Shown here: piece after piece, positions 53,969-56,150 of the stretch
How positions within the stretch are numbered: the first letter of the stretch is position 1
Layout: each line of letters begins with the position of its first letter
NCBI GenBank assembly: GCA_022823665.1
Contig: JAJEHN010000009.1
Span: 372,001-436,000 of the forward strand
DNA length: 64,000 nucleotides
Source of the DNA: Thermoanaerobaculia bacterium
GTDB taxonomy: Bacteria > Acidobacteriota > Thermoanaerobaculia > Multivoradales > Multivoraceae
Direction: 5' to 3'
Translations under genes and position numbers: made by a program
Notes under the pieces: model-generated
Database searches by the model: none
What the model saw: only the letters and a program-made list of their open reading frames with translations
Told to the model about the DNA's origin: nothing

Positions 53969-54435
53969 GTTCCGCCGTACAGCCTCTCCACCAGGCGGCG
54001 CACGAGGCCGGGCTGCAGGCGAGCCAGACGCTCGCCGGCGACAGCCACGGCCTGCTGGATACGTCCGTCATCATCGACTACGACCTGATCGACCCGTTGG
54101 AACTGCCGGACCTGTCCGCCGTCTCGGCCATCACGATGGCCGAACTCACGGTCGGGCCCCTGGCGGCCGGCCAGGACGACGAAGAACGAGCCCGCCGGCA
54201 GGACCGCCTGCAGTGGGCCGCCGGCACATGGGACCCCCTGCCGTTCGACAACGCGGCGGCTCGCGCCTACGGGCGGATCTACTCCGCACTCCTGCGCCAG
54301 GGCCCCGTCGGCCGCCGGCGCCTCCCCGACTTCCTGATCGCCGCCATCGCGCTGGCCAACGACCTGCCCCTCTACACCAGGAACGCCGCCGAGCTGCGCG
54401 GCCTCGAGGAGCTGCTAGCCGTCCGACCCATGTAG
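53965..54435 (+). CDS. PIN-domain (VapC-type) toxin
   Basis: LLDTSVIIDYDLID; SAITMAELTVG; YGRIYSALLRQG...LPDFLIAAIALANDLPLYTRNAAEL; ATGA overlap with antitoxin. Confidence 0.9.
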   Translation: MSSAVQPLHQAAHEAGLQASQTLAGDSHGLLDTSVIIDYDLIDPLELPDLSAVSAITMAELTVGPLAAGQDDEERARRQDRLQWAAGTWDPLPFDNAAARAYGRIYSALLRQGPVGRRRLPDFLIAAIALANDLPLYTRNAAELRGLEELLAVRPM

Positions 54436-55422
54436 AACCTGGTCGACGCGTCCCGCCAGCTTCCAGGCGTAGTCCAGCGCGTGGCCGAGCGAGTCGGTGA
54501 AGGCCTTCCCCTGCCAGGCGATGTCGAAGGCCGTTCCGTGGTCCACCGACGTGCGGACGATCGGCAGGCCGATCGTCACGTTGACGCCGCGTTCGAAACC
54601 GTAGAGCTTCATCGGGGCGTGGCCCTGGTCGTGGTACATGCAGACGACGGCGTCGTAGCGGTCGAGGTGGATCGCCTGGCGGAAGATCGTGTCCGCCGGA
54701 TGCGGGCCGGACACGTCGAGACCGTCCGCCGCCGCCCGCTCGATCGTCGGCCGGATGATCTCCTCGTCCTCGGTGCCGAACAGGCGGTGCTCTCCCGCAT
54801 GCGGATTCAGCCCGCACACCGCGATCCGCGGCCGCTCGATGAACCGGGACAGAGCCTCGTGGGTCAGGTCGATCACCTTGCGGATACGCACCGGTTCCAC
54901 CCGATCGATCGCCTCGCGCAGGCTGACGTGAGCACTGACGTGAGTCACCGCGAGCTCCGGCACCGTCAACATCATCGCGAAGTCCTCGGTGCCGCACAGA
55001 CCCGCGATGAACTCGGTGTGCCCCTGGAAGTCCGGCCGCGACATGCGTGTCGCCTCCTTGTTCATCGGCAGAGTGACGACCCCTGCCACCCTGCCCGCCA
55101 AGGCGTCACGCGTCGCACAGTCGACATAGGCCAGCGCCCCCGCACCGGCCTCTCGGCTCAGAACAGCGGGCGTCACGTCTCCCGCACTCAACAGCCCAAG
55201 ATCGCGGACGTTCAGCGAACCCTCCACTACCTCCTCCGGCCCATCGATCGAATGAACCTCCACGTCCAGGCCCAGCGCCGCGGCCGCCCGCACCAGCACC
55301 GCCACATCGCCATACACCACGGCATCGCTGCCCAGCAGCCCCTCGGCGAACCGGCGCACCGCAATCTCCGGCCCAACGCCCGAAGCATCCCCCATCGTCA
55401 CCGCCATCGGCCGCCCTGCCAT
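54415..55422 (-). CDS. pdxA: 4-hydroxythreonine-4-phosphate dehydrogenase
   Basis: VTMGDASGVGPEIAVRRF; VTLPMNKEA; GLNPHAGEHRLFGTEDEEII; VCMYHDQGHAPMKLYGFERGVNVTIGLPIVRTSVDHGTAFDIAWQGKA. Confidence 0.96.
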   Translation of the reverse strand: MAGRPMAVTMGDASGVGPEIAVRRFAEGLLGSDAVVYGDVAVLVRAAAALGLDVEVHSIDGPEEVVEGSLNVRDLGLLSAGDVTPAVLSREAGAGALAYVDCATRDALAGRVAGVVTLPMNKEATRMSRPDFQGHTEFIAGLCGTEDFAMMLTVPELAVTHVSAHVSLREAIDRVEPVRIRKVIDLTHEALSRFIERPRIAVCGLNPHAGEHRLFGTEDEEIIRPTIERAAADGLDVSGPHPADTIFRQAIHLDRYDAVVCMYHDQGHAPMKLYGFERGVNVTIGLPIVRTSVDHGTAFDIAWQGKAFTDSLGHALDYAWKLAGRVDQVLHGSDG

Positions 55423-55459
55423 ACGGGAAATCTACTCTGCCCCTCGGCAACGACCGCCA

Positions 55460-55630
55460 GCCTGGTGCGGTCCGGGGAGGGGGTCCCAGCGAGCTTGGAG
55501 TGAGCGACTGCCCACACCCAATCATCAACCGAGGCCGACCGGAGCGAACGGAACGCAGCGAGCCCCACCCTCCATTCCAGTCAGAGAAGGCGAGCGTTCG
55601 CTGGGACCCCCTCCCCGGACCGCACCAGGC
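55460..55630. repeat. MITE-like element: 171 bp with 33-bp perfect terminal inverted repeats
   Basis: Left arm 55460-55492 GCCTGGTGCGGTCCGGGGAGGGGGTCCCAGCGA; right arm 55598-55630 is its exact reverse complement. Confidence 0.9.
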
Positions 55631-55715
55631 GGGTGTGTCCGACGTCCGGTGGCCGGTGCCTGCTGCTCGTGTAGATTCGCCGCTCCGTACCCAAGCGAAC
55701 GCACGAGGAGCACCC

Positions 55716-56150
55716 ATGGCCGAGTACATCCCAAGCCCGATCCAGTGGGTCCGCGACCAGGTGGAGCTCTACGAAGGCAGCGGCGGCACCGAGGGCGTCG
55801 GACTGCGGGACACCGGCCTGCCGTGCATCATCGTCACCCACACGGGCAACAGGACAGGCTCGATCCGCAAGACGCCGCTGATGCGCGTCAAGGACGGCGA
55901 CAGCTACGTGCTCGTGGCCTCGAAGGGGGGCGCGCCGAAGAACCCCGAGTGGGTGTACAACCTGCGCACGGACGCCGAGGTCGAGCTCCGGGACGCCACG
56001 GAGGTCCAGGCGATGCGCGTGCGGGAGGTCGAGGATGCCGACGAACGGGCCCGCGTCTGGGCGCTGGCAGTAGAGGCCTTCCCGCCGTACGAGGAGTACC
56101 GGAACAAGACGTCCCGCACGATCCCGGTGTTCATCGCCGAGCCCGCGTAG
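55716..56150 (+). CDS. Nitroreductase family deazaflavin (F420)-dependent oxidoreductase (DDN-like)
   Basis: LPCIIVTHTGNRTGSIRKTPLMRVKDGDSYVLVASKGGAPKNPEWVYNLRTDAEVELRD; ATG at 55716. Confidence 0.9.
   Translation: MAEYIPSPIQWVRDQVELYEGSGGTEGVGLRDTGLPCIIVTHTGNRTGSIRKTPLMRVKDGDSYVLVASKGGAPKNPEWVYNLRTDAEVELRDATEVQAMRVREVEDADERARVWALAVEAFPPYEEYRNKTSRTIPVFIAEPA

Follow-up and report, generated by a model that had tools for sequence, protein, structure and literature searches.

A short palindromic repeat family with covarying arms and a preferred polarity at gene ends in sponge- and coral-associated Thermoanaerobaculia

A 64,000-nucleotide stretch of a Thermoanaerobaculia genome (the window) carries, between two divergent genes, a pair of perfectly matching inverted arms around a short core. 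What kind of element is this, and how did it come to lie there? The original prediction read it as a MITE-like element whose perfect arms suggested recent mobility, a strong hairpin, or both. The arms were as predicted: 55460-55492 and 55598-55630 are complementary at 33/33 positions with zero mismatches and enclose 105 nt, and inclusion of three further bases gives a stem of 36 nt with a 97% match (Table 1). A 24-mer of the arm occurs 2 times in the window against 0.01 expected from shuffles. When repeats within 600 bp were compared, this copy was by far the strongest inverted repeat of the 64 kb. RNA folding of the window copy yielded -112 kcal/mol for the plus strand (z = -8.8) and -128 kcal/mol for the minus strand (z = -9.3), bearing out the strong hairpin. 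The flanking genes, predicted to be a divergent pdxA and F420-linked oxidoreductase pair, were confirmed as such by their Pfam matches and strands. Neither the GC hairpin and T-run of an intrinsic terminator nor a promoter-like site was found at the window copy. The inner helices P2 and P3 are both broken by GA/GA steps (GCGAGC-type), which resemble the tandem sheared G.A motifs known from structured nucleic acids.

Table 1. Parts of the window copy and the genes on either side of it (window coordinates)
Feature	Coordinates	Strand	Evidence
pdxA, left neighbour, reads away from element	54415..55422	-	PF04166, E = 8.9e-100
Left arm, outer stem, conserved start CCAGCC	55457..55492	+	Complementarity; CCAG nearly invariant at 66 independent loci
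Core, 105 nt, conserved between copies, A-rich on +, without convincing ORF	55493..55597	+	
Inner helix P2, 5' side, GAGTGAGCGACT, approximate limits	55498..55509	+	Consensus structure helix 5
Inner helix P2, 3' side, approximate limits	55539..55552	+	Consensus structure helix 5
Inner helix P3, 5' side, AGCGAGCCCC	55557..55566	+	Consensus helix 6; pair counts
Inner helix P3, 3' side, AAGGCGAGCG	55587..55596	+	Consensus helix 6; pair counts
Right arm, outer stem, conserved end GGCGGG	55598..55633	+	Complementarity; alignment of loci
F420H2-dependent quinone reductase family gene, right neighbour, reads away from element	55716..56150	+	PF04075, E = 2e-39

The element is short, non-coding and within the MITE size range, as had been proposed, and BLASTN against its own genome revealed a dispersed multi-copy family, in which about two dozen other copies had identities of 67-77%. 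From 24 copies of this genome we built a covariance model, which marked 42 places in the genome, one of them partial; additional model rows were the same places on the opposite strand, or weak. By covariance model, copies are present in 21/21 sequenced species of the genus (sponge and coral Thermoanaerobaculia, Ca. Multivorans group), where the total of 997 represents raw matches with double-strand readings included. Most of the genomes compared are MAGs. The copies differ by 25-30% in sequence, each with its own matching arms. Four other genera of the same order (G040, G032, G046 and G056) carry diverged relatives that share this architecture, and G070 gave weak, doubtful matches. Under stricter filters, a 297-genome sample of the phylum produced matches in this genus alone. 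One locus of G032 (L085) holds three same-strand copies (847-1024, 1174-1351 and 1501-1676) whose starts are spaced at exactly 327 bp, forming a tandem array in which the repeated unit is larger and includes the element. A phage or plasmid origin was rejected, as the phage and plasmid sequences searched contained zero matches. Rfam returned none at gathering, and no match on the element worth keeping at E up to 5. The literature surveyed on acidobacterial and sponge-symbiont repeats (mostly without subscription papers) comprised general REP and MITE papers, with no description of this family. With no Rfam, phage or plasmid match, the family is apparently undescribed.

In window orientation the consensus reads cgACG.C.T - CCAGCC - variable arm - GGGTCCCAGCGG - core - CCGCTGGGACCC - variable arm - GGCGGG, and the core of ~105 nt, with its two further helices, is the conserved part. 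Covariance-model matches favour the model's own structure; the main covariation count was made on a MAFFT alignment (A3) that was not fitted to that model, with the structure derived from the same sequences. Across the 66 independent loci the consensus structure was paired in 91.5% of cells, and two-sided compensated cells numbered 422, compared with 119 after shuffling and 41-90 when partners were slid by 1-3 columns. Covariation through G.T intermediates extends to the short inner helices, more weakly in P2 than in the other helices; the first pair of P3 was GC in 117 cases, AT in 51, GT in 21, CG in 7, TG in 5 and AC in 2. The arms thus vary between copies and are matched within each copy. 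Because copies differ yet each is self-consistent, the arms are not fixed transposase sites, and their covariation is unlike the behaviour of transposase-bound TIRs.

A G.T mismatch reads as A.C on the opposite strand, and a bias between the two therefore reveals which strand is under selection. On the plus strand we counted 108 G.T against 44 A.C over all copies, and 38 against 16 when each locus was represented by a single copy (p = 0.004). One-sided changes between close orthologues comprised 64 G.T, 31 A.C and 64 other. The core on the plus strand contains 1601 A and 626 T, an A-richness that the flank does not share (4444 and 3983) and that is as expected of the unpaired bases of a functional single strand. 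These three asymmetries agree, and they point to the plus strand of the window as the strand that probably folds under selection.

Placement relative to genes was tallied for 212 distinct copies in 68 locus clusters, copies within a cluster not being independent; the genes were our own unannotated calls, made with a window-trained codon model. The right-hand gene is transcribed into the element in 53/66 clusters, against a null of 0.45-0.48 (random intergenic placement in G009 and G019), with a median of 20 nt from its stop codon to the element (one copy per cluster). Since the right-hand gene runs into the element, the folded strand would be antisense to that gene. The orientation of the left-side gene is unbiased. 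Other families showed the same polarity tendency (17/24 overall, 9/10 in G040). Opposed pairs, minus then plus, often lie at convergent genes, each with its own copy. Between the members of such pairs (L147 3252-9109, L146 3228-4658, L157 3252-5278, L160 3228-8416) there is often little host-like coding signal, which suggests that foreign DNA accumulates there. By position and GC skew, about 10/25 copies are co-oriented with the leading strand; the polarity is therefore not explained by replication direction, and a replication-strand preference was rejected. The original prediction had placed the element in a divergent promoter region. This is true of the window copy, which is however an exception in its placement, since most copies lie just downstream of stop codons.

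Two observations concern the right flank. A CTAC there was considered as an inverted GTAG tag and rejected, as it is mostly the stop codon of the neighbouring gene. In the right flank of G040 copies (L071, L076, L080, L084, L087, L092) a GC hairpin recurs that has a T-rich tail, CCGGGGGACCCGTGCCCCCGGTTCTTTGAG in gene direction. Situated between the gene and the element, it resembles a stereotyped terminator or a target.

The history of the pdxA locus does not bear out the recent mobility read from the perfect arms. Seven species share a full element in the spacer that separates pdxA from the oxidoreductase gene; it diverges among them by 0.02-0.12 (2-12%), compared with 0.16-0.36 for the four-fold sites in the neighbouring gene. 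Deletion remnants were found in G005, G007 and G010, and short spacers without the element in G004, G013, G018 and others. With the copy shared by seven species and independent deletion derivatives in others, a recent insertion was rejected. The pdxA gene tree is weakly resolved, with filled species on both sides, and the simplest account of the locus would be an old insertion followed by repeated loss. In this genome (G000) the copy lacks one base from each arm relative to the other species.

Downstream of purU a full copy is present in nine genomes, all in one orientation. At least three subfamilies are represented, with 64-70% identity between them, and the copies of G008 and G018 are most similar to copies at other loci (80-81%). 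The locus is without the element, its genes nearly abutting, in G014, G006, G020, G005, G007, G004 and G009. Repeated independent insertion at this site, always in one orientation, would be hard to avoid as an explanation of the pattern; recombination that exchanged one copy for another is a possible alternative. The purU copy of G002 (L413) is interrupted by another palindromic repeat, GCACCCATGTGGCGC...GCGCCACATGCGTCGC, which lies inside, or in place of, the right half of some element copies, with similar pieces at L050, L123 and L138. None of the loci compared established a clean insertion confined to one species, with an exact junction. No target duplication was evident, as the longest flank word shared was the same within as between copies. 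CGAC-like flank words were rejected as a target duplication, being no commoner within a copy than between copies.

Element divergence had a median of 0.09 against 0.197 at four-fold sites in 294 orthologous pairs, a measure that excluded pairs with <80% element identity and so flatters the element; 32/39 clusters agree in the element being the slower. The element was also more conserved than its immediate flank in 156/181 pairs.

The explanation that we favour, with belief and doubt about evenly balanced, is a non-autonomous, structure-dependent mobile palindromic repeat that is aimed at gene 3' ends and held by purifying selection at many loci. The window element would be one copy of this ~180-nt repeat, with a putative mover, and would have spread in single-stranded form, as RNA or ssDNA folded from the window plus strand, with its right end aimed at gene 3' ends during insertion. 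Inserted copies would then be passed on vertically, their arms kept matching by compensatory change, probably with help from template-switch repair. Purifying selection would hold them at many loci, probably through action of the long hairpin on RNA 3' ends or transcription. To what is observed, namely a multi-copy family with covarying structure, strand asymmetry, 3'-end polarity, recurrence at purU and slower-than-synonymous evolution, this proposal adds a presumed single-strand intermediate and a presumed host function, the latter suggested by constraint and placement. We infer that the polarity arose from insertion rather than later selection. It could be an outcome of selection rather than targeting, which counts against our proposal, as do the failure to find a target duplication, a clean one-species insertion, or a mobilising enzyme at the Y1 loci examined, the lack of a promoter-like site or U-tract at the window copy, and the exclusion of low-identity pairs from the constraint measure. 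A bolder version, which we put forward only tentatively, is that the family may represent a new class of non-autonomous mobile element, inserted at gene 3' ends through recognition of its antisense-strand fold by an RNA- or ssDNA-dependent mechanism, co-opted by its hosts and conserved in several families of one order.

If mobility were minor, the element could instead be a host cis-acting structure (a transcription stop, a read-through blocker or a stabiliser of mRNA 3' ends) which recombination or duplication would have spread and which would be retained wherever it is useful. Its fixed place and polarity at stop codons, its slower evolution than four-fold sites and flanks, and its very stable hairpin all suit such a role. 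We nevertheless consider it rather unlikely: the element is repeatedly deleted or absent in related species, the window copy has no U-tract terminator, and the strand asymmetry favours the gene-antisense strand, not the mRNA strand.

That a Y1 (RAYT/TIRYT) transposase moves the element, as a repeat of REP/REPIN or TIR type, we regard as improbable. Acidobacterial Y1 enzymes with associated TIR repeats have been described; the motif of such repeats, GGGGWSAS (PMC3733652), occurs in some arms of the element and might indicate a distant link to TIR/Y1 systems. The GTAG tag is absent in the genus (CCAG instead), stands at the start of most G040 copies and is GGAG in G056. The lack of target duplication and single-strand folding would also fit Y1 transposition. 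Y1 transposases are, however, present in 12/21 genus genomes and undetected in several copy-rich ones, and the examined Y1 genes of the genus have a different REP on either side, never the element. In the part of the Y1 loci examined in nine genera, no element-like match bounded a Y1 gene as a TIR, the Y1 genes of other families included, and no matching transposase or RAYT association was found at the Y1 loci examined. RAYT was thus rejected as the mobiliser, the repeats at RAYT genes being another family. This second repeat, CTCTGGGTGCGC-GGGTC-TTCT-GACCC-GC and variants, forms inverted pairs around RAYT-like genes (L164-L171) and is apparently the genus's own RAYT/REP system; many element copies also have it in their left flank.

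That the element is a classic MITE, derived from a DDE transposon by internal deletion and mobilised in trans at its TIRs, is very improbable. Size, lack of coding sequence, copy number and inverted ends are those of a MITE, and to that extent the original reading stood. Its "recent MITE" did not, as the copy is not recent and its TIRs are not conserved between copies; the arms vary freely around a conserved core, target duplication is lacking and polarity at genes is fixed.

That the arms match solely through replication template switching, which copies arm onto arm with no selection on structure, is barely credible: the mechanism can produce mirrored changes (PMC8794818), close orthologues showed 51 of them against about 5 two-sided changes expected if the arms were independent, and in this genome each arm has apparently lost one base, yet mirrored indels are rare (1 against 22 one-sided), the short inner helices covary through their G.T intermediates and the core is slow-evolving too. 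Template switching may contribute to arm matching; the observed excess of G.T over A.C is not among its predictions.

If the mobile-repeat explanation is correct, this is an apparently undescribed repeat family that breaks the usual MITE rule, with variable ends, a kept core and a preferred polarity at gene ends. It would provide hundreds of natural replicates for testing how insertion selects among folded single strands, material to test template switching against selection as the keeper of perfect long stems, and a clear hypothesis on 3'-end control in uncultured sponge symbionts.

By sequence comparison, the element appears to resemble small mobile palindromic repeats, and it lacks both the classic MITE features (conserved TIRs, target duplication) and, at the Y1 loci examined, the RAYT-REP association. 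ERIC, YPAL/RU-2, NEMIS/Correia and RUP are small mobile repeats of 100-200 bp, non-coding and intergenic with long stem-loops, and ERIC is reported to have orientation-dependent effects on neighbouring mRNA (PMC2229807). The element is likewise non-coding, intergenic, multi-copy and stem-looped. Those repeats mostly have conserved ends and target duplications, whereas the element has covarying ends, no duplication found and a fixed polarity at stop codons that they do not share. Like GTAG/CGTC-tagged REPs, REPINs and TIR repeats, it is palindromic, extragenic and folds as a single strand (PMC3733652). REPs are 20-40 bp, in contrast to about 180 nt with a conserved core, and unlike RAYT/TIRYT repeats the element in the genus has neither GTAG tag nor adjoining Y1 gene at the loci examined. 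Group IIC introns insert in fixed orientation just after genes, and their movement needs RNA structure. The element shares this orientation and place; unlike these introns it has no Rfam match at E = 5, is much shorter and folds as the gene-antisense strand. Integron attC sites lie just after stop codons, and their active form is the folded gene-antisense strand. Compared by position and strand alone, the element resembles them in both respects; the attC layout is reversed in it, with the core conserved and the ends variable, and its copies, unlike attC sites, stand singly beside ordinary chromosomal genes.
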